From a virus, in the IMG/VR virus record IMGVR_UViG_3300023117_001807, positions 1-39,068 of that record: a stretch of DNA of 39,068 nt, one strand, 5' to 3'. The notes beneath the pieces are model-generated. The model made no database searches. It had not been told where the DNA came from and saw only the letters and a program-made list of their open reading frames with translations. Of the stretch, positions 4,477 to 15,447 are shown piece after piece (positions within the stretch are counted from its first letter, which is position 1; every line of letters begins with the position of its first letter). A program made the translations under genes and the position numbers.

Positions 4477-4508
4477 TAGACTTAAGGTGGTTTATAGTGT
4501 AGTATAAT
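4477..4508 (+). promoter_or_regulatory. Promoter of the tRNA cluster
   Basis: TAGACT at 4477-4482 with TAGTAT at 4500-4505 (17-base spacer) or TATAAT at 4503-4508 precede the first tRNA by about ten bases. The block TTATAGTGTA at 4492-4501 is identical to the one in the clpP promoter, so the two promoters are probably related. Confidence 0.5.
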
Positions 4509-4517
4509 AATTGTGAT

Positions 4518-4593
4518 GCCGCTTTAGCTCAGTTGGTAGAGCAACTGATTTGTAATCAGTAGGTCCGCGGTTCGAATCCGTGAAGCGGCACCA
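4518..4593 (+). tRNA. tRNA-Thr (UGU)
   Basis: A complete 76-base cloverleaf with GCCGCTT/AAGCGGC acceptor stem, anticodon stem ACTGA/TCAGT with loop TTTGTAA (anticodon TGT), GTTCGAA T loop and an encoded CCA end. Confidence 0.95.
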
Positions 4594-4664
4594 GATAAAC
4601 CAAACATGCCAATATTACCATTAATACCAAAAAACTCAATGGTCTTGCATGTGATGGTGTATTT

Positions 4665-4738
4665 GGGGGATTGGTGAAGTGGGATCACGCATCCATGGCA
4701 TGGATGAGTCAGGAGTTCGACTCTCCTATCCTCCACCA
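4665..4738 (+). tRNA. tRNA-Ala (GGC)
   Basis: The acceptor stem GGGGGAT/ATCCTCC contains a G3-U70 wobble pair, the main alanine identity element. The D stem is GTGA/TCAC, the anticodon stem CATCC/GGATG with loop ATGGCAT (anticodon GGC), the T stem AGGAG/CTCCT, and CCA is encoded. The variable loop has four bases (AGTC), and loop position 32 is A, both slightly unusual. Confidence 0.85.
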
Positions 4739-4746
4739 ACAAAAAT

Positions 4747-4823
4747 GTGCCCGTAGTTCAGTTGGATAGAATACGAGTTTCCTAAACTTGGGGTCGGAGG
4801 TTCGAATCCTTCCGGGCACACCA
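4747..4823 (+). tRNA. tRNA-Arg (CCU)
   Basis: A complete 77-base cloverleaf with acceptor GTGCCCG/CGGGCAC, anticodon stem CGAGT/ACTTG and loop TTCCTAA (anticodon CCT), a GTTCGAA T loop and encoded CCA. It reads the AGG codon, which is frequent in the phage genes here. Confidence 0.93.
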
Positions 4824-4843
4824 AAAACACAATAATTAATTGT

Positions 4844-5146
4844 GTGAAGAAGTTCTATTCAATCAAGTTGAAACAGTTCAAGGAGAACATACCACCCGCA
4901 CTGGCGGAGACCATGTTGTTGGACGAATCCAAACTGGTCAAGTACCTATGGAAACACAAAGCGTTGGAGTTCAGGTATCCCAAACACAAAGGAAGATTGG
5001 ACCTATACGCTGACGAGAAATACCTCATGATGGGCAAGTTGAAGTACCCCACCATGTTCGGCAACAGGAAAAGGATGGGCTTCATGGAACTTTACATTGT
5101 ACACAGGATCAACCAGAGAATGATGAATGCGAAAGGATCCACGTAA
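4844..5146 (+). CDS. Hypothetical basic protein
   Basis: The 100-residue product is Lys/Arg-rich, without membrane segments or recognised motifs. It starts with GTG 20 bases after the tRNA-Arg, and its stop overlaps the next start (TAATG). It is first in a four-gene coupled set ending at 7423. Its codon use is like that of the core phage genes, less A/T-rich than the next two genes. Confidence 0.6.
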   Translation: MKKFYSIKLKQFKENIPPALAETMLLDESKLVKYLWKHKALEFRYPKHKGRLDLYADEKYLMMGKLKYPTMFGNRKRMGFMELYIVHRINQRMMNAKGST

Positions 5147-5694
5147 TGACGAATAACAAACTAATATTTGGTCACCAAATACCAATAGAAGTATCAGCAG
5201 AGTGTGACACATCTGTGCAAGTATTAGTGAACGACAGACCAGTTTGGGAAAACAAATACAAAAAAGGTCTCAAGCATAACGAAGTGATCGAGTTCGATGA
5301 AGACTATAAAGATGCAAAAAAAAATAAACTTACTTTTCTATTTTCTGGGACAGACGAGGTTGAAAAAAAATATCTAAAAATTTTCCAGATCACAATGAAC
5401 AAACAAATTTTTAATTTATATAATGCAGAATACTTTCCTAATATAAATCGAGAATGGTGGGAACAGCTCACTCCAGATCAGAAAGATTATTACAACCAAG
5501 TAATTTACGGCAAGACAGGATCTGAGTACGGGTGGTACGGAGAGATAAATTTTTACTATTGCACGGGATTTGACTTCAGATCAAAAACACGCTATAATCA
5601 AAACACGACAGACAAGCATATACTACTCGGAGAAAAACAAAATTGGATATACCTAGACCAAGATAGCAATGGGGTACACAACAAAACAAAATGA
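5146..5694 (+). CDS. Hypothetical protein upstream of amidinotransferase
   Basis: The product has 182 residues. Residues 1-85 look like a beta-rich domain; the rest is rich in Tyr, Trp and Asn. I recognise no family. Its stop overlaps the start of the amidinotransferase gene by four bases, so the proteins are probably made together. It is visibly more A/T-rich than its neighbours, suggesting separate origin. It may be an acceptor or binding partner for the enzyme. Confidence 0.55.
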   Translation: MTNNKLIFGHQIPIEVSAECDTSVQVLVNDRPVWENKYKKGLKHNEVIEFDEDYKDAKKNKLTFLFSGTDEVEKKYLKIFQITMNKQIFNLYNAEYFPNINREWWEQLTPDQKDYYNQVIYGKTGSEYGWYGEINFYYCTGFDFRSKTRYNQNTTDKHILLGEKQNWIYLDQDSNGVHNKTK

Positions 5695-6704
5695 TTAATG
5701 CACACAACACATTCGATCCGTTAAAGGAAATAATAATAGGTGATGTCGATCTTGCATCTATAAAAATAGACGACCCGAGGAAGCAAAAAAGGATAGAGTA
5801 CATATTCCATAAGACTAAAAACGAACTCAACCACTTTCAGACAGTTCTCGAATCTCGTAACATAAAAGTTCACAGACCTTCGTTGATAAAAAACACAGAA
5901 ATAAAAACTCCGTTTTGGTCTAGCCCAGGCACAAAGATACCACTCACCCCCAGGGATCTATTCCTGGTGTTAGGCAATACGATAATCGAATCTGCAATGT
6001 GCGAGCAAGAACGTTTCTTTGAGTCATTTTATTACAGAGATATTATTATAGAGCAATTCAAGAATGGAGCAAAATGGATAGCCATGCCGGCACCAAGGCA
6101 CGACTACAACAATTACGAAATTGATATAAGCGATGACATACCTAACCAAGATCCTATTATGGATGCCCCCGCATGTTTAAAATATGGAAAAGATATTTTT
6201 GTAAACACACACGGTGCCGGCAATCGACTGGGTCTGGAATGGCTTCGATCCGCATTTGATGACAGTTACACATTCCACGAGATCAATCAACCAGAGATCG
6301 TTGGTCACCTAGATTCACAATTCACAATACTAAGACCAGGACTTTTACTTACATATCATGAAAGAGAGATATTACCCGAGTACTTTAAAGATTGGGAAAT
6401 AATTAATGTAAATCCCACGCAAGACAGAAGCAAGGCAAACGCACATACCTTGATAGATTCTAGGATACAGGACACGGATCCAGAAAATACTGTACTAGTC
6501 GTAAATTGCCTCAGCATAGATAGAAACACAGTTGTGATGTGGGAACATTATAACACACAGACAGAGATGCTGAAGGAATTTGAAAAACATGATATAGAAG
6601 TTTTATTTGTGCCGTTCACTTATTCTCACTTTTTTAACCAAGGTGTAACATGCCTAACACTTGATCTCGATAGACATACACCAGAAGGATTAGTGAAGTA
6701 CTGA
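5691..6704 (+). CDS. Arginine:glycine amidinotransferase-like enzyme
   Basis: Enzymes of this family move the amidino group from arginine to an amine via a covalent Cys intermediate. The 337-residue protein follows the family along its length: TPRDLFLVLGN (about 86-96), a catalytic Asp in IMDAP (Asp158), GLEWLR (181-186), GHLDSQF with catalytic His206 and Asp208, and the nucleophile region NQGVTCLTLDLDR with Cys321. Glycine amidinotransferase has the same D, H, C order. The length matches bacterial members. The acceptor is unknown: glycine, an amino sugar or another amine are all possible. It is coupled to the genes before and after it. Confidence 0.85.
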   Translation: MINAHNTFDPLKEIIIGDVDLASIKIDDPRKQKRIEYIFHKTKNELNHFQTVLESRNIKVHRPSLIKNTEIKTPFWSSPGTKIPLTPRDLFLVLGNTIIESAMCEQERFFESFYYRDIIIEQFKNGAKWIAMPAPRHDYNNYEIDISDDIPNQDPIMDAPACLKYGKDIFVNTHGAGNRLGLEWLRSAFDDSYTFHEINQPEIVGHLDSQFTILRPGLLLTYHEREILPEYFKDWEIINVNPTQDRSKANAHTLIDSRIQDTDPENTVLVVNCLSIDRNTVVMWEHYNTQTEMLKEFEKHDIEVLFVPFTYSHFFNQGVTCLTLDLDRHTPEGLVKY

Positions 6705-7423
6705 TGAAGTTTGGATATTACGCAGACAATGAACTGCCAGTGAGCGTGGCACTGGATCGGTCACCATTGAAAGACTACAAGGTCAACTCTTACGGATACA
6801 GATGCCCCGAGTGGACACCAATGCCTGATGGCAAGAAGAACGTGGTGGTGCTGGGTTGCAGTCACACGTTCGGGCAAGGCAATGCAGACAACGAACACTG
6901 GGTACATTTCTTATCACAACACAACACAGATAGACTGCGTTACTGGAATCTTGGCCAGCCCGGTGCCAGTGCTGACAAGGTTGTCAGGATCCTGTACGGA
7001 TGTGAAAAAGTGATCGATCCTAGGATAGTGATAGTGTGCTGGCCTTTCTGGAGTCGCAGGGAAAAGTTACACAGTTATGCACAGAGTCTTATGAGTTATG
7101 ATGAGGAACTAAAGCACGAGACAGACGACTCAGACAAGAACAACTTCCTTAAAAATGTTTTCCTTGTGGAGAAGTATGCGGAGAAGAACAACTGCAAGAC
7201 CTTTCATTGCTTCGCCCAGGACTCATACCATGAACACATAAAAGGGCTTAATGTTTTACAAGATTACACCTTGAAAAACTGTTGGCCTTACTGGGACAAA
7301 AGAGAGCAACCCATTCAATACACAGACCCAAGTCTAGCAAGAGACGGAGTTCATTACGGCACAGAACATCACAAACGGTTTGCAAAATTGTTTCTGGATC
7401 AATTTTCATCGAAATTGAAGTAA
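6704..7423 (+). CDS. SGNH/GDSL-type hydrolase-like protein
   Basis: SGNH hydrolases include esterases and O-acyltransferase partners that add or remove acyl groups on glycans. The 239-residue protein has block I GCSHTFGQG (nucleophile Ser53), NLGQPGAS (83-89, block II-like) and block V DGVH (Asp214, His217). No signal peptide is seen, so it acts in the cytoplasm. It is last in the coupled operon 4844-7423. Its stop overlaps the convergent radical SAM gene by 25 bases. Two further SGNH-type proteins occur in this window. Confidence 0.7.
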   Translation: MKFGYYADNELPVSVALDRSPLKDYKVNSYGYRCPEWTPMPDGKKNVVVLGCSHTFGQGNADNEHWVHFLSQHNTDRLRYWNLGQPGASADKVVRILYGCEKVIDPRIVIVCWPFWSRREKLHSYAQSLMSYDEELKHETDDSDKNNFLKNVFLVEKYAEKNNCKTFHCFAQDSYHEHIKGLNVLQDYTLKNCWPYWDKREQPIQYTDPSLARDGVHYGTEHHKRFAKLFLDQFSSKLK

Positions 7424-8394
7424 TCGTTTACATCTATGTTACGCAAGGCATCCTGCCTGCCGATAAAATCTTCTAACTCTTTATCATTGTTTCTGTCCAC
7501 TGCTATTTCTTTTGGAGACATAATTTTTGCCAATCTTGTAAACTTATTATCGTACTTTACGCTCAACACACTTGGTTGTTCCAGGAACGCCCAATCGTGT
7601 GGTATGTTCTTGTTCTTAGCAAAGTTTACTATGTCGGGCAGTGTTTTGATGTTCAGACAGCTCACTGTAGTCCAGAAATCTAGTTGCAATAGTTTGTATT
7701 GTTTCTGCAGAGCAAGATAGGCATCTAAAGTTTTCTTGTAGTTGTTCCACTTGATAGGCCAACGTGCATAGTCATGAACTTGACCGATTCCATCCAAGCT
7801 CATTGTCACTATGACCATTATGTTTCTCTTCAACACCTCCTCTATCTCTGGGATCATTCTTGATCCGTTGGTATTCATCCTTACTATCTTCACGTTCTCC
7901 GGGAGTGCCTTTAATACCTTTTTGTAGTTCTTGCTGGCAGTGGGCTCACCGCCGTTCACATCAAATTCAATAATCCTTTCCTGAGGTAACTTCTTAAACA
8001 ATTCGTAATTGTCAACACGTGGATAGTCTTTAGATTCCAGGCTTCCTATCTTTGTGCTGAGTCCGGCATGGCACGACTGACAGGCACTGTTGCACACATT
8101 ATCCAACACACCTCCCACTATTAGGTAGTCTTTGCGTATAGGATGTAACATCTTGTGTCTGGCTATGCTGTTGGTCCGTATGCTTTCGCCCTTGACCTTC
8201 TCCGACCTCTGACACCTGAAACATTCCATAGGCCATTGCCCTTGTTCCATTGTGGCACGGACGTTTGCCATCCAGTCGCTCTGTTCAAGTTCCTCGTGAC
8301 TGCTAAACCCTTTTGCATGAATCATGTGTCCACACTTGCCCACAGAACCGTCTTGGTTAAGTCTTACAAAGTGATCTAATCTAGGACAAAACAT
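7399..8394 (-). CDS. Radical SAM protein with N-terminal Cys region
   Basis: Radical SAM enzymes use a 4Fe-4S cluster and S-adenosylmethionine to make a radical. The 331-residue protein has the motif C101-x3-C105-x2-C108 and the GGEP motif (148-151) that binds SAM. Before it lie Cys3, Cys21, Cys58 and Cys61, which could hold an auxiliary cluster, an arrangement that puts a SPASM/twitch-like part at the N terminus. The substrate is unknown; peptide and sugar modifications are known for the family. It is last in the four-gene operon 9420 to 7399, overlapping the gene before it by 14 bases. Confidence 0.85.
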   Translation of the reverse strand: MFCPRLDHFVRLNQDGSVGKCGHMIHAKGFSSHEELEQSDWMANVRATMEQGQWPMECFRCQRSEKVKGESIRTNSIARHKMLHPIRKDYLIVGGVLDNVCNSACQSCHAGLSTKIGSLESKDYPRVDNYELFKKLPQERIIEFDVNGGEPTASKNYKKVLKALPENVKIVRMNTNGSRMIPEIEEVLKRNIMVIVTMSLDGIGQVHDYARWPIKWNNYKKTLDAYLALQKQYKLLQLDFWTTVSCLNIKTLPDIVNFAKNKNIPHDWAFLEQPSVLSVKYDNKFTRLAKIMSPKEIAVDRNNDKELEDFIGRQDALRNIDVNDYFNFDEN

Positions 8395-8911
8395 TTTTAT
8401 ATTTCCTTATGATGTGTCCTAGTTCAACAGTCTGTCCTAACTGTGTCATTAGTTCATAATCGATATCGACAAACCTTTTTATTGGAGCGACCTCAATTTT
8501 AGGCATCCAGGCCAGTTCTGCTCTTTTGATGTCTGTAATTCTTTTAATGTCTTTAAACGGTAGCAAAGTCACCTTACCCCTGTAGAATTTAAACAGGTGC
8601 AATAGCCAAACGAATTGCGGACAGAAATGTCTGTCATTCACTTTTTCTTGTTCCACCAAGGACCATGTTCTCCTCACGTCGAGGGCGTTCTGCCGACAAT
8701 ACTCGTTGATGCCTGAAACAAATCGGATGGCAGGATCTCTCAACAGAATCTGTATGTTCTTACAATTCTTTATTTGATTGTTGGTGTAGATTATATCGGC
8801 CGCGTCTCTTAATGACGACGATCCATTCCTGAATATTGGATAGACAGTTTGTCTTCCGATGCCAACGACCTCGCAATCTGCATCGAGTAGTTTGATCCAC
8901 GCAGTCGGCAT
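8381..8911 (-). CDS. Sulfotransferase-like protein
   Basis: Sulfotransferases move sulfate from PAPS to sugars or other acceptors. The 176-residue protein has PIFRNGSSSL (25-34), matching the 5'-phosphosulfate loop of membrane-type and heparan-type sulfotransferases, and LLRDPAIRFVSGINEY (56-71), matching the 3'-phosphate motif (Arg58, Ser66). It is shorter than typical (about 250 or more), so it may be a minimal form. It starts in a TAATG overlap with the SDR gene. A kinase-like P-loop protein is the main alternative, less likely given the second motif. Confidence 0.7.
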   Translation of the reverse strand: MPTAWIKLLDADCEVVGIGRQTVYPIFRNGSSSLRDAADIIYTNNQIKNCKNIQILLRDPAIRFVSGINEYCRQNALDVRRTWSLVEQEKVNDRHFCPQFVWLLHLFKFYRGKVTLLPFKDIKRITDIKRAELAWMPKIEVAPIKRFVDIDYELMTQLGQTVELGHIIRKYKNVLS

Positions 8912-9420
8912 TATATCAATTCCTGTTCTGTTAAAACCCTAGCAACGTATTCCTCAGCGGATATGCTATCAGGATCACTAAATGTTTGTGTGTTGACACT
9001 ACCGGGCCTGATAAGTTCCATTTTGATTTTGCTAGATTGTGCCCTCAGTTGTGCGTGGGCCAGTTCTAATGCCATCTTCTGATTGCGGTATTCCATGACC
9101 TGTCTCATTGTTAGGCCGTTGATATGTTTGTCCTCTTTCCACATACACACCTGGGTTGATATGTTCCAAATGTGATGCACTTGCTCGCTGTTCTGCCATC
9201 TGTGCCACACCTCAAACAACAATTCGGTTTGGGCATACATGCTTATGGCATTGTTTATGAACATGTCACAGGGTTCAATCATAGATGCCGTGTGTGATGT
9301 CCTACGAATATTCTCGCCGTCGCTTCTCGATATACCAACTATACTGTGTCCTTTTTTGATCAGTTGCTCGGCGAATGCTTTACCGATTCCTTTTTTATGT
9401 CCTGTGATCGCAATTTTCAT
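8911..9420 (-). CDS. Short-chain dehydrogenase/reductase
   Basis: SDR enzymes oxidise or reduce sugars and other alcohols with NAD(P). The 169-residue protein has TGHKKGIG (6-13, dinucleotide-binding TGxxxGxG), NNA (56-58), a Ser near residue 88 and Y111-x3-K115. It is shorter than the usual 250 residues. The N-terminal SRS after the second strand suggests NADP preference. A GTTAAATA late octamer ends six bases before its ATG, with no ribosome binding site, so it heads a late operon with the sulfotransferase-like and radical SAM genes. Confidence 0.8.
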   Translation of the reverse strand: MKIAITGHKKGIGKAFAEQLIKKGHSIVGISRSDGENIRRTSHTASMIEPCDMFINNAISMYAQTELLFEVWHRWQNSEQVHHIWNISTQVCMWKEDKHINGLTMRQVMEYRNQKMALELAHAQLRAQSSKIKMELIRPGSVNTQTFSDPDSISAEEYVARVLTEQELI

Positions 9421-9426
9421 TTTTAA

Positions 9427-9434
9427 TATTTAAC
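9427..9434 (-). promoter_or_regulatory. Late promoter GTTAAATA (minus strand)
   Basis: The octamer ends six bases before the ATG at 9420. Together with the plus-strand octamer at 9448-9455 it forms a divergent late promoter pair. Confidence 0.65.
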
Positions 9435-9447
9435 GGTGCCCTGTGGT

Positions 9448-9455
9448 AATAAGTA
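9448..9455 (+). promoter_or_regulatory. Late promoter AATAAGTA
   Basis: A two-mismatch version of TATAAATA, eight bases before the ATG at 9464. It is divergent to the minus-strand octamer at 9427-9434. Confidence 0.5.
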
Positions 9456-9463
9456 TTTTTTGT

Positions 9464-10084
9464 ATGATAGATTACCTAGGCGATCAAACCAAATTCAAGG
9501 CATGCCATGAGCTTCCTGTGTTTAACTTGAAAGACATCAAAAGCCAGGTCATGGAATGGATACAAAACAACACAGACTTCTTGCAGGACAAAACAAGCAA
9601 AGGGTTTTGGATGAAAATTGATTACAAGGATCTCGGCAGGTCTGCTCCAGCATTAATTGAATATTTTAGACACGTCAGAATACCTATACAGGAAATTACA
9701 GTAGGAGTATTAACAGAAGCCATGACCGACGGATTTGAAATGCATCACGGATCACCCGGGAGAAATTTTAAGATAAATTTTCCAATTCACAATACCGAGG
9801 ATGTTTACACAGAATGGTATGACATTCCGGATGATAAGTTGAAAGAGTTTCCCTTGATTACAAACAAACACACCCGAGAATTTTGTTACAATTTAGGTTC
9901 CATACATGATACCGTGGATAAACTTTATCCTCTGCGTGTTGCTTATAATATGCATGAATGTCCGATAGTGTTCAACAGTTATCTGCCTCACAGAGTCATG
10001 CCCGGTGCAAATGCAAAATACCCTAGAATAATGTTAGCGACAATGCCAGTCAGAGATCCCTTTGACCTAATGCAGTTGTCTTAA
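9464..10084 (+). CDS. Possible 2OG-Fe(II) oxygenase-like protein
   Basis: The 206-residue product resembles the double-stranded beta-helix region of phage oxygenases in layout: MHHGSPGRNFKINFPI (about 93-108), then VFNSYLPHRV with His176, and basic residues (Arg178, Arg188) where 2-oxoglutarate would be bound. A clear HxD is missing, so it may be inactive or a different cupin-like protein. I place the start at 9464, eight bases after a late octamer, rather than at the upstream in-frame GTG at 9443, which lies inside the promoter. Its end overlaps the convergent radical SAM gene by 18 bases. Confidence 0.5.
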   Translation: MIDYLGDQTKFKACHELPVFNLKDIKSQVMEWIQNNTDFLQDKTSKGFWMKIDYKDLGRSAPALIEYFRHVRIPIQEITVGVLTEAMTDGFEMHHGSPGRNFKINFPIHNTEDVYTEWYDIPDDKLKEFPLITNKHTREFCYNLGSIHDTVDKLYPLRVAYNMHECPIVFNSYLPHRVMPGANAKYPRIMLATMPVRDPFDLMQLS

Positions 10085-11086
10085 GGTCGCTTCCTCGACT
10101 ATTTTACTTTCTCTCTTCACAAGTTTATCTAGATGTGTTCTGTAGTCACTGTGCTGTGGATGTTGTACATCAAATATGTTGTGTTCCGAGAAATTGTCCC
10201 ATGTGTTCCAGTCTTGTATCCTGCTGAACCAAACCCTGTCGGCGTTGTACTTTTCTCCCAACATCACAATGTCTTCCATCTCGTGGTAATTGTCTTTTTG
10301 CACAACATAGTGCATTATAAACCTAAATCCGTGTTTGTCCTTTAGTTCAGAGATGTATTGTAGATTCTCATTTATTTTTTCCCATCTACCGCCTAGTCGC
10401 AGTTTCTCATAGGTCTCTTTCGTGGCACCGTCTATGCTCACGCCCAACTCGTTCAAGTTCCTTATGATGTAGGGCACACGAGGTGCGAAGTCCTTTAACA
10501 TTAGGGCATTGGTCAGTATAGAGTACTTTATGTTATCCCGCTCTGGTGTCTGCTCCATAAAATGCCTGTACACGTGTGAGGCAAACGGATCCCCATCGGA
10601 ACCTATGTGCACCTGTATTGGATGTTTGCAGTAATACAACCATTCATTTATTTTGTCCGCAAGTCTTAGGCCCAGATTGTAGGCCGATCCTTCTTTGTGG
10701 AATACCAGACTCTTACGACAACTGGGACATCTCAAATTGCAACTTTCATCGATGGCAAGTCTCAGATGCTGTATGCGATCCGGCCGGCCATGCAATACAG
10801 CATTTGACTTTATGTATGAGCACTGGTGTTCATTGCAATAACGATAGGTACCATCTGTGATGGAACTCTGCAAGTGTTGGTGCATGTCACTGCCAATAAT
10901 TTCCTCCAGTGATTTTATCTGTAAGTTGCCTACGCTCTGTGGCAACCATGACTGACATTCACAGGCATAGCACGAGCCCTGCTTGTCGATCAGTATGGTG
11001 TCCCATGGACGTGGACATAGATTCTTTATCTTGAGATCCTTGGTGGTATCGACACCATACTGATCGAATATTCGTTGATTGATCAT
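10067..11086 (-). CDS. Radical SAM protein with N-terminal SPASM-like domain
   Basis: The 339-residue enzyme has the cluster motif C116-x3-C120-x2-C123 preceded by LRLAIDESCNLRC. Residues 24-60 hold C24-PRPWDTILID, then C39, C42, C44 and GNL, which is the pattern of a SPASM auxiliary-cluster domain; C84 and C89 follow. In most SPASM enzymes that domain is C-terminal, so the order here is inverted, as in the other radical SAM protein at 7399-8394. The substrate is unknown. It begins four bases inside the end of the 55-residue gene upstream. Confidence 0.85.
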   Translation of the reverse strand: MINQRIFDQYGVDTTKDLKIKNLCPRPWDTILIDKQGSCYACECQSWLPQSVGNLQIKSLEEIIGSDMHQHLQSSITDGTYRYCNEHQCSYIKSNAVLHGRPDRIQHLRLAIDESCNLRCPSCRKSLVFHKEGSAYNLGLRLADKINEWLYYCKHPIQVHIGSDGDPFASHVYRHFMEQTPERDNIKYSILTNALMLKDFAPRVPYIIRNLNELGVSIDGATKETYEKLRLGGRWEKINENLQYISELKDKHGFRFIMHYVVQKDNYHEMEDIVMLGEKYNADRVWFSRIQDWNTWDNFSEHNIFDVQHPQHSDYRTHLDKLVKRESKIVEEATLRQLH

Positions 11087-11427: not shown

Positions 11428-12366
11428 ATGAAAATGACAAAGAAAAAGGCGGCTATTGGTGTGGCGATTATCATCGCACTAGTGGCTATTTGGTCGGTTA
11501 TGAAACCGGCACCGGCTGAAGCGGCCGAGATGAAGGTGTATGGTTCACTGAACTACATGCTGTCAAACAACGAGAATGCTTCAGGCGTGGCAACATCAAA
11601 AGCGGAGAACAACGGTTCAGCGATTGGTGTTGACTTCAATAGCAACATCGCAGAGGGAATCGACGGCTTCGCCAAGTTAGAAGTGGACATCGACGCGGAT
11701 GACTCTGGTTCATCACCATTTGACTCTAAACTGGCTTACGCTGGTATTGACATGGGTGACGCGGGTGTGCTATCAGCAGGAAGACAGAACTCTGTGTTCA
11801 AGGGTGCTGTTACATCTAAGACAGATGTGTTCCCAGAATTCGGCGGAAGTGCCGCACAGAAATTGTTCAGCAGGGACTCACACACTGTTGTGTACTCGAA
11901 CAGTTTGGGTGCAATCCAGATCGACAACTTGGTAAAAGTTGACGGTTCAACTGGTAAATCAGGCGTTGACGTGTACGAGACTGCGGCTTCCATGGACATC
12001 TCTGACTCACTGAACATCGGTGTTGCATACACGGATGACAAGGTGAACTCAGTTGAGTACATGGGTGCGGGTATCACATTCGACCTTTCTGATGCTACAA
12101 CAATCGGTTACAACCACACAATCAAGGAAGTGGAATCTACTAGTTTAGAGACCTCTGCCAATGAAGTAGTTGCTTCACACCTGATCGGTGCGACGACTTT
12201 CTCAGTTGGTTATGGTGAGATCGAGGATGGCAACAAATACACTACGGTTGGCGCTGAGAAGAAATTCGGCGAGAACTTCAGCATGTATGGTGCTTATCAG
12301 ATGACGGATGTGCCAACAGGTACAGACACAAACGACATGGCGGCTGGAATCAAGTTCACATTCTAG
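11428..12366 (+). CDS. Outer-membrane porin
   Basis: The 312-residue protein has a basic start, a hydrophobic core (about 9-24) and an AEA cleavage region near residues 30-32. The mature part begins EMKVYGSLNYML, the usual first strand of Gram-negative general porins. It shows alternating beta strands, DSKLAYAGIDMGDAGVLSAGRQ typical of the family, and ends in Phe (KFTF), the outer-membrane insertion signal. It should form a trimeric pore in the host outer membrane. It has its own late promoter, leader and terminator. Base composition and codon use are even and rich, as in highly expressed genes. Confidence 0.9.
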   Translation: MKMTKKKAAIGVAIIIALVAIWSVMKPAPAEAAEMKVYGSLNYMLSNNENASGVATSKAENNGSAIGVDFNSNIAEGIDGFAKLEVDIDADDSGSSPFDSKLAYAGIDMGDAGVLSAGRQNSVFKGAVTSKTDVFPEFGGSAAQKLFSRDSHTVVYSNSLGAIQIDNLVKVDGSTGKSGVDVYETAASMDISDSLNIGVAYTDDKVNSVEYMGAGITFDLSDATTIGYNHTIKEVESTSLETSANEVVASHLIGATTFSVGYGEIEDGNKYTTVGAEKKFGENFSMYGAYQMTDVPTGTDTNDMAAGIKFTF

Positions 12367-13402: not shown

Positions 13403-14196
13403 AGTATCATCTAAGCAACGGTTGTAGTTTCAGCACAAGGAAAAAGTTTGACAGTTGTCATCAACGTCTGGGAAAGTTGTTGAACATTGACGAACCCACG
13501 ATCAGCATGGCCAAGGGTGGCAGGGGAAACGACAGGATAGTGAACACAACGATGCATTGGTTCTTCAAGAACCCTGACAAGATAAAGGACACATTCGTCA
13601 GCATAGGGTGGACCACAGGATACAGATGGGATTATGTAAGTAGTACGATGACTCCAGCAGTCAAACAGGGAGGGATCAAAGGAGAATTACTGAAGTTTGA
13701 TTATCAATGGGGAACGTGGCAACTGCACCAACATGATTTCTTTATGAGGAATGAGGATTTTGATGTTGAACTTGCAAGTGCGGTAAAACTTTATACTAAT
13801 ATTTTATCTTTACAGTATTTCCTAAAATATCATAACATACCGTATGTGTTCTATCATGCACTCACGAATGATCTTCCAGAGACAGAGGTTGATGGGAAAC
13901 CTAGACCAGATTTGAAATTATTAAAAGATCAAATAGACAGGAAGCACTTCTATAATTTTGAGAGCAGTGAGAACTCCAAAGAGAATGTGGAAATACAAAG
14001 AAATAATAGATCATCACCTGAACATAAAGCCCGAGTCAAAAAAACCAAATATGTGCAAAGTCATTTCGAATATGTTGCTATGAATGGGTGGACTAAATCT
14101 GCAAATGATGGGCACCCTAGTGAACGAGGACATCATGCATGGGCACAGAATCTAGCACAGTTTGTGCAACAAAATCAGTTATGTCCAAAAAAGTAA
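13399..14196 (+). CDS. SGNH-like protein paired with glycosyltransferase
   Basis: The 265-residue protein has NGCSFS (block I, nucleophile Ser10), GGRGNDRIV (40-48, block II-like) and DGHPSERGHHAW (Asp237, His239, block V). It resembles the protein at 31450-32139 in all three blocks, and that one is also next to a paralogous glycosyltransferase. It probably adds or removes an acyl group on a sugar. It has no signal peptide. Confidence 0.65.
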   Translation: MKYHLSNGCSFSTRKKFDSCHQRLGKLLNIDEPTISMAKGGRGNDRIVNTTMHWFFKNPDKIKDTFVSIGWTTGYRWDYVSSTMTPAVKQGGIKGELLKFDYQWGTWQLHQHDFFMRNEDFDVELASAVKLYTNILSLQYFLKYHNIPYVFYHALTNDLPETEVDGKPRPDLKLLKDQIDRKHFYNFESSENSKENVEIQRNNRSSPEHKARVKKTKYVQSHFEYVAMNGWTKSANDGHPSERGHHAWAQNLAQFVQQNQLCPKK

Positions 14197-14762
14197 TCGT
14201 AATCAGTCAGCCAAAAGCAGGCACTTATCTTTGTGCCAATGTGCTTCAAGAACTTGGATTAAGATTTGATGGTTATCACTTGGGAGAAAAGAAATATGAA
14301 AAATACCCACCCCCAAGTGCTCCGCATTATCAAGCGGCCATACGTGATCCTAAAACAGTTGAAACTAGACAACGTCTGCATCAATCTATCAAATTGATTG
14401 AACCGGGTGCATTTGCAGTCAGTCACTTGTTGTACACTATTGAAAATGAATTATTGCTCACAGATTATCACAAAATATGTGTCACAAGGCCCGAAACAGA
14501 AATTATCGACAGTTTGAAAAGATGGGAACAGTTCAGTGGTAGAAAACCCACAAACATAACACCCACTCTAGCAAGAATACGCAGTGTGGCCAAATGGATT
14601 GGCCGTCCGGGAGTGTTTCACCTCACATTCAATAACATGAAATCCGCTGACGCAACAAGAATTGATCAGTTACAGCAGTTTCTTGGTATTCAAGATCGTG
14701 TTGACAGCAGTCAATTGTGTGCCCGTGCTTTACAGCGTGGAAGCAAAACTAAAGTTACGTGA
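14181..14762 (+). CDS. Sulfotransferase-like protein
   Basis: The 193-residue product has ISQPKAGTYLCANVL (8-22), a 5'-phosphosulfate-binding loop, and KICVTRPETEIIDSLKRW (98-115), a 3'-phosphate motif with Arg103. I choose ATG 14181 over the in-frame ATG at 14139 because the P-loop strand then starts directly, as in the family, and overlap with the SGNH gene is small. It would use PAPS made by the host. A kinase is the alternative. Its end overlaps the convergent methyltransferase gene by eight bases. Confidence 0.65.
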   Translation: MSKKVIVISQPKAGTYLCANVLQELGLRFDGYHLGEKKYEKYPPPSAPHYQAAIRDPKTVETRQRLHQSIKLIEPGAFAVSHLLYTIENELLLTDYHKICVTRPETEIIDSLKRWEQFSGRKPTNITPTLARIRSVAKWIGRPGVFHLTFNNMKSADATRIDQLQQFLGIQDRVDSSQLCARALQRGSKTKVT

Positions 14763-15447
14763 CCACAATACAACTTGCTTGGTAGGCCCAGTTCCTATTT
14801 AACGGCTTGACTTTTCTTTTACATTCGTCCAGCCACTCGATCAATGCCAGGAACTCGTGATCCTGCCATTTGCTCATTTTGCCACTCAGTCGAAAGTTAC
14901 AGAACTCGTCGAAGGTGATCACCGTTCCTGCTACGATCTGATCATTCAATGCTGTCAAAACTTCTTTAGTGGATGAATAGATATCTGCATCCATGTGCAA
15001 GAACGCGATTGGTCCTGTGTTGTGCTGTTTCCATATGGGTAGTGTATCCTTGAACCAACCTTTGTGTAGTTGGATGTGATCAGGTACAGTGGGAGGATCG
15101 CAACTCATGTCGTTTACTTTACCTGTGCCGTGATCCCAATCTTCAGGTAATCCTTGCCAAGAATCAAATGCGTGTATCACTTGCGAGGGATATCGGTCTA
15201 TAAGCCACTTGAGGCTCCTGCCTTCCCTCACACCAAACTCACACCAGTGACCTTGTAGTGTCACATGTTCCGTTGATTCTATCAGGTGCACGTGTATGCT
15301 CTCTCTGTAGTTGGCAGATGTGCTCTTACCAACATATATGGGATCCAAAGCGATCCAGTCTTCCAACAGTGTTTTGCCTTTCTCAACTCCTGAAAGCAAA
15401 GATTGTAATTGTGATTTAGATTTTACTGTCTTAATTGCTTTTGACAC
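14755..15447 (-). CDS. TylF/macrocin-type O-methyltransferase
   Basis: TylF-family enzymes add methyl groups from SAM to sugar hydroxyls with a divalent metal. The 230-residue protein shows EFGVREGRS (70-78, SAM site), FDSWQGLPE (94-102), HMDADIYSST (151-160) and a metal/SAM-side TFDEF (178-182). The length matches the family. It starts with GTG a few bases after the gp41 stop, so it may be read through from the replication operon. In this setting it probably methylates glycans. Confidence 0.85.
   Translation of the reverse strand: MSKAIKTVKSKSQLQSLLSGVEKGKTLLEDWIALDPIYVGKSTSANYRESIHVHLIESTEHVTLQGHWCEFGVREGRSLKWLIDRYPSQVIHAFDSWQGLPEDWDHGTGKVNDMSCDPPTVPDHIQLHKGWFKDTLPIWKQHNTGPIAFLHMDADIYSSTKEVLTALNDQIVAGTVITFDEFCNFRLSGKMSKWQDHEFLALIEWLDECKRKVKPLNRNWAYQASCIVVT

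Follow-up and report, generated by a model that had tools for sequence, protein, structure and literature searches.

The locus and its phage

The window analysed here is 39,068 bases long, stems from the IMG/VR virus collection and carries T4-like replication genes. It encodes a UvsX protein whose nearest counterparts belong to jumbo phages of 350-490 kb (Sinorhizobium phage Phosso, 69%; Atu_ph07, XaC1, CBB and GAP32). The window is a fragment, probably of a jumbo T4-like phage, a large, uncultured virus of a bacterial host, and since it probably covers only about one tenth of the genome, the lack of a given gene within it says little. A near-identity DNA search of the phage collection with the window returned matches in tRNA genes only. 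Slightly upstream of the tRNA cluster lies a gene for a ClpP-type protease (1914-2531, Pfam 6.7e-82).

The enzyme gene sits in a tight run of genes (Table 1). The first-pass annotation had grouped it into a single operon with the genes of an unknown protein and of an SGNH protein, and this arrangement is real: besides the 4-base overlap upstream, the SGNH gene begins on the last base of the amidinotransferase gene. Homologs of the SGNH protein, 62-63% identical, follow the enzyme in two related contigs (L001 and L075), and both motif blocks are conserved in L001. Since the SGNH gene follows the enzyme only in the window, L001 and L075/L076, it is a local companion, while the beta-sandwich protein encoded upstream is the constant one. 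The order of the radical SAM, SDR and radical SAM/SPASM genes that follow (7399..11086) is the same in L075 as in the window.

Table 1 Features of the amidinotransferase locus and examples of a second paralog type.
Feature	Position	Strand	Basis or remark
100-aa ORF at the head of the gene run, no family	4844..5146	+	shares one base with the partner gene
Partner protein, 182 aa, N-terminal beta-sandwich, unknown family	5146..5694	+	overlaps amidinotransferase gene by 4 bases
AGAT/StrB-family amidinotransferase, 337 aa	5691..6704	+	open frame; sequence, profile and Foldseek matches
Arg88-Asp89 (human R169-D170), guanidinium site	5952..5957	+	invariant in alignments
Asp158 (human D254), predicted partner of the catalytic His	6162..6164	+	alignment
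Gly205-His206-Leu-Asp208 (human M302-H303-x-D305): predicted catalytic His, guanidinium Asp, Gly at the acceptor-lid Met	6303..6314	+	alignment
Arg225 (human R322), putative arginine carboxylate site; Lys in L008/L009/L077/L079	6363..6365	+	alignment
Asn266 at human S355, clade signature	6486..6488	+	alignment
Thr320-Cys321 (human H406-C407), with Cys321 as the predicted nucleophile that would form the amidino-thioester	6648..6653	+	alignment
SGNH/GDSL-like protein, 239 aa, motifs GCSHTFG and DGVHYG	6704..7423	+	Pfam Lipase_GDSL match below cut-off
Radical SAM	7399-8394		order conserved in L075
176-aa protein	8381-8911		order conserved in L075
SDR	8911-9420		order conserved in L075
Radical SAM/SPASM	10067-11086		order conserved in L075
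Second-type AGAT-fold paralogs (examples)	L092 12362-13390 (contig IMGVR_UViG_3300020166_001048); L094, L095, L097-L101

Genes of glycan type are numerous in the window (GT61, three FkbM methyltransferases, TylF). Between 25260 and 36195 glycosyltransferase-like genes (GT61 and others) are packed together with genes for a DUF6071 protein, a 2OG enzyme and three methyltransferases of the FkbM type, a run that suggests elaborate glycan construction. The window also encodes an outer-membrane porin with an apparent signal sequence (11428-12366, Pfam Porin_1 1.2e-11); L008 carries a porin-like protein (14143-14961) for which Pfam gave no match.

Family, fold and active site of the enzyme

In phmmer comparisons with solved structures, the 337-residue protein matched StrB1 (1bwd) at E=5.7e-41, HsvA at 3.6e-33, SxtG at 2.5e-32 and human AGAT at ~1e-24, far beyond chance, and a five-sequence profile raised these matches to 3e-66 for StrB1 (1bwd), 2e-55 for HsvA and 8e-51 for human AGAT. 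Scans with Pfam and NCBIfam gave no meaningful match, and PHROG 25854, whose listed function is unknown, matches the enzyme over its length at 5.4e-28. An AlphaFold2 model (pLDDT 75, pTM 0.80) adopts the five-bladed alpha/beta propeller (pentein) fold and lies nearest AGAT/StrB1; in Foldseek its best matches were 1bwd (1.3e-24), 6u1r, 5wpi and 1jdw (2.2e-22), that is, StrB1, SxtG, HsvA and human AGAT at 1e-24 to 2e-22, with DDAH next at 1e-11. By family and predicted fold, the gene thus encodes an AGAT/StrB-type amidinotransferase, which bears out the phage AGAT-family enzyme proposed at first. A failed active-site geometry in a structure model had been named as the refuting finding; the model addresses this in part, in that AGAT-family structures are its best matches. 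The gene is under purifying selection: dN/dS is ~0.08 for L008 against L077, two closely related members of the clade.

The catalytic-site residues of the family are Cys407, His303 and Asp254 (PMC3684758). The TPRD motif of the phage enzyme ends at R88-D89, and D89, D158, H206, D208 and C321 align with human AGAT D170, D254, H303, D305 and C407, so that the equivalents of the catalytic triad (C321, H206, D158) and of the guanidinium-binding aspartates (D89, D208) are all present. Arg225, which had gone unnamed at first, is kept as well; it aligns with human R322, which we take to be the arginine-carboxylate residue. Every window-clade member with sequence there keeps the core residues, and the R322 position is Arg or Lys. 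The description of the catalytic residues as intact therefore holds for TPRD, D158, H206/D208 and C321, which lie where the first-pass annotation put them, but not for the equivalents of S355, H406 and M302, which are changed. Ser355 and His406 belong to the active-site shell and are conserved in solved enzymes, although they are not strictly family-defining; asparagine (N266) and threonine (T320) replace them across the whole window clade, which is alone in this among the canonical sequences of a 94-sequence alignment and has, besides, Gly at M302. The active site, as read from the alignments, is not wholly family-standard, and the effect that S355N and H406T may have on the enzyme counts against a confident reading.

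The 300-flap also departs from that of GATM proper: Asn300 and Met302 are replaced by I203 and G205, and position 300 is Phe in several window-clade members. M302 lies in this flap, which shapes acceptor binding, and in AmtA the M246S change abolished transfer while traces of ornithine were still released from arginine (PMC4887976). CyrA/AoaA, however, has Ser at 302 and Phe at 300 and yet uses glycine as acceptor (PMC3684758), so the acceptor is not readable from position 302. We accordingly dropped Gly205 as proof of a large acceptor; the residue would be compatible with glycine.

A phage clade with a linked partner

Phage amidinotransferases as such are already known. A 'possible glycine amidinotransferase' was reported in 2010 for Campylobacter phages CP220 and CPt10 (PMC2853527), a K00613 gene has been tabulated for gypsum-karst-lake phage contigs (PMC8226683), and Synechococcus phage S-SCSM2R (PQ898602) carries an annotated 'inosamine amidinotransferase'. 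One scan found relatives of the window enzyme on 57 IMG/VR contigs, and a second scan added more. A maximum-likelihood tree unites the window with L001, L008, L075, L077 and L078 in a clade of 100/100 support, set by a long branch (0.92) away from StrB1, AGAT/HsvA and every other phage group: AGAT, HsvA and Pseudomonas sequences unite elsewhere (100/99), and StrB1 pairs with a Pseudonocardiales protein (99/97). The tree with known family members, suggested with the original assignment, thus does not group the enzyme with AGAT. What is new here, as far as the sequences tell, is a well-supported phage-only clade of amidinotransferases.

The closest known system is StrB1, the Streptomyces inosamine-phosphate amidinotransferase (1bwd): it is the best match in sequence and fold, has the same core residues and is of similar length (348 residues against 337). 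The two differ in that they are only ~28% identical and fall in different clades, T302, S355 and H406 of StrB1 are G, N and T in the phage enzyme, and the latter has no adjoining aminotransferase. Human AGAT (GATM), SxtG, HsvA, AmtA and CyrA/AoaA share the family fold and D170/D254/H303/D305/C407; they differ in the 300-flap and S355/H406, and the window enzyme is a phage gene with an obligate neighbour. Among phage enzymes, that of CP220/CPt10 is likewise encoded amid radical SAM genes, but it is ~28% identical, lies on a distant branch, does not align at R322 (Ser) and has no beta-sandwich partner that we could find. The S-SCSM2R enzyme, with glycosyltransferases and radical SAM nearby, is ~25% identical, keeps S355 and H406 and sits in a cluster of short DegT, radical SAM, 2OG and GT genes.

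A second novelty is the strict linkage of the enzyme to the partner, which is present in single copy directly upstream in 9/9 contigs of the clade (including L001, whose partner gene is truncated at the end of the contig). A collection scan with the partner recovered only enzyme-bearing contigs plus one contig that ends inside the partner, and none of the isolate phages searched carries it. The AlphaFold2 model (pLDDT 70.5) predicts a beta-sandwich with a helical tail and found no match at E<0.001 among PDB folds, with only weak resemblance to C2, C1q and CBM60; one uncharacterised phage protein matches at 2.7e-6, and a KRAB match was dismissed as chance. The partner alignment contains one invariant lysine column (K78), and the C-terminus is poorly conserved. 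In L077, small sandwich-like proteins also stand directly before a NodU/TobZ carbamoyltransferase (4489-5082) and an Asp/Arg-hydroxylase-like 2OG enzyme (9612-10121). Jackhmmer did not join them to the window partner by detectable homology, and a 'sandwich plus enzyme' pattern there would be an impression only.

The contigs of the relatives also revealed several AGAT-fold genes per genome (three in L008, four each in L077 and L061). Most of these paralogs are of a second type, in which RD, HxD and Cys are retained but R322 is lost, and in nearly all members of this type D254 is replaced by Cys, Asn, Ser, Lys, Gln or Trp. The type is very common in IMG/VR (at least 554 confirmed among the first 600 candidates listed) and occurs in 3 of 50,697 records of the phage collection; one L008 copy lies within a DegT sugar cluster. 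The several paralogs per genome, this abundant phage family among them, are a third novelty. The wealth of paralogs supports a broad, unexplored use of the AGAT fold by phages, and the window enzyme is part of an extensive viral radiation of the amidinotransferase family that has for the most part not been studied.

Gene neighbourhoods and candidate acceptors

Because the 39-kb window holds no aminotransferase, we infer the acceptor from the genomic company of relatives; these neighbour data come mostly from clades other than the window's, with shared ancestry among them. In the L010 group a 2OG-like enzyme, a short DegT aminotransferase, the amidinotransferase and a carbamoyltransferase are tightly packed in this order, with the StrS/DegT aminotransferase ~60 bp from the enzyme. 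On cyanophage-like contigs a short DegT, usually the sole one on the contig, lies 0-2.7 kb away; on single long contigs, a gene pair this close would arise by chance with a probability of 0.005 for L016, 0.024 for S-SCSM2R and ~0.04 for three 75-kb contigs, several of the contigs in this statistic being related to each other. A 2OG-oxygenase-like gene (so called from its motif and the annotation of S-SCSM2R and of related cyanophage genes, with no Pfam match) stands directly upstream of the enzyme in L018, L024, L061 and S-SCSM2R and one gene farther in L010 and L016, the latter two having a carbamoyltransferase directly downstream. Genes resembling UDP-glucose/GDP-mannose dehydrogenases and 2OG enzymes precede the amidinotransferase in L018, L024 and L061, and in Firehammer-type Campylobacter phages it is surrounded by radical SAM genes, an aminotransferase gene being close by. 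The logic of streptomycin synthesis runs from keto to amino to guanidino group, and the StrS-type aminotransferase and sugar-tailoring neighbours of these other phage lineages appear to follow a similar one.

For the window clade itself the evidence is weaker. A full-length DegT (E ~1e-104) is encoded by L008 and L079, and in L008 its gene is flanked by those of an SDR epimerase and a Gfo/Idh reductase. In L008, L077 and L079, however, 17-18 kb separate the aminotransferase from the enzyme, a distance that does not beat chance (0.21-0.48), and linkage of the two in this clade was dropped as an argument.

Some features of these contigs stand apart. The phage DegT aminotransferases at 678-1394 of L010 and 5293-5880 of L003 are only ~195-240 aa long (the canonical model has 360 positions), and in L040, L029, L033 and L054 a plus-strand short DegT and the amidinotransferase are split by minus-strand genes, at least some of them SGNH-like. 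RuBisCO large-subunit-like proteins occur on two amidinotransferase contigs, L001 (6265-7455, minus strand) and L016 (1136-2272, plus strand; Pfam RuBisCO_large 1.2e-42 and 4.2e-35); the gene in L001 adjoins a nucleotidyltransferase-like gene.

The reading that we favour, with moderate confidence, is a phage L-arginine:amine amidinotransferase of the AGAT/StrB family whose acceptor is not glycine but an amino group that a sugar or glycan made by the phage would offer. L-arginine would be bound by Asp89, Asp208 and Arg225 and attacked at its guanidino carbon by Cys321, with His206 and Asp158 serving as acid and base; ornithine would leave an amidino-Cys321 thioester behind, and the amidino group would then be handed to a primary amine to give a guanidino product. 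The amine most likely belongs to a sugar or glycan from the phage's own tailoring genes, and the likely task of the beta-sandwich partner is to bind or position either the acceptor or the enzyme. Of the roles that the first-pass annotation had offered, transfer of a guanidino group to a small molecule or an amino sugar remains the best reading given the company of the relatives, and consumption of host arginine would be a side effect only.

Context favours a sugar or glycan amine, then a protein (perhaps the partner), then glycine and then a polyamine. That lysines or the N-terminus of the partner or a virion protein are amidinated, changing their charge, is suggested by the partner being the sole invariant companion, always upstream and overlapping, and by the other sandwich-like small proteins before the carbamoyltransferase and 2OG enzyme of related phages. 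We nevertheless think it rather unlikely: K78 is the only invariant lysine column of a partner with a poorly conserved C-terminus, and we know of no AGAT-family enzyme that acts on protein.

An auxiliary arginine:glycine amidinotransferase feeding guanidinoacetate and creatine precursors, as the K00613 annotation implies, belongs to the same family; CyrA/AoaA, with its small residue at 302 and the Phe 300 also seen in several clade members, uses glycine, and creatine genes have been proposed for viruses (PMC11360552). The neighbours of the relatives are sugar-tailoring genes, however, S355N and H406T are specific to the clade, and StrB1, SxtG and HsvA stand nearer than AGAT in sequence and fold. 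With Gly at M302 as well, the name 'arginine:glycine' is not supported, and we consider glycine unlikely as the acceptor. The creatine pathway was set aside, as no guanidinoacetate methyltransferase or other gene of that pathway was recognised in the window.

An HsvA-like polyamine amidinotransferase, whose guanidinylated putrescine or spermidine would help to package the genome or decorate the DNA, is suggested by HsvA being among the nearest solved relatives but appears improbable, as HsvA falls in the branch of bacterial enzymes and AGAT, away from the window clade, and no polyamine gene was recognised in the window. An arginine hydrolase or deiminase-like activity depleting host arginine would fit the shared pentein superfamily, the Thr-Cys dipeptide unusual for AGAT and the slow arginine cleavage left in AmtA M246S after its 300-flap Met change; it is very unlikely, since AGAT types are matched far better than DDAH or ADI (E 1e-24 vs 1e-11) and simple depletion would not predict strict partner linkage in a tailoring-gene setting. 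Least probable is a dead or regulatory pentein retained for binding, which S355N, H406T and the paralogs without D254 and R322 in the same phages might suggest, because the clade keeps the equivalents of C407, H303, D305, D254 and D170 under purifying selection.

Overall, the window adds to a known enzyme family a new phage clade whose members have an obligate partner of a kind not seen before in solved structures. The K00613 label, glycine amidinotransferase, under which the viral enzymes are catalogued leads to their being interpreted as part of arginine or creatine metabolism, whereas the evidence here points to the tailoring of sugars or amines, with a streptomycin-like pairing of aminotransferase and amidinotransferase in several phage lineages. 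The strict partner offers a simple two-protein system for testing, and the paralogs without D254, which are frequent among jumbo phages from metagenomes and hardly occur in records of isolates, constitute an open enzyme family. More tentatively, jumbo T4-like phages could use the AGAT fold as a toolkit, in which canonical enzymes, the window type with its sandwich partner and the abundant D254/R322-less type would modify an aminoglycoside-like glycan that the phage makes for the virion, the DNA or the host surface, adding guanidino groups or others to it. To our knowledge, decoration with guanidino-sugars has not been described for viruses; if the favoured reading is true, phages make such sugars, and with them a positively charged decoration.
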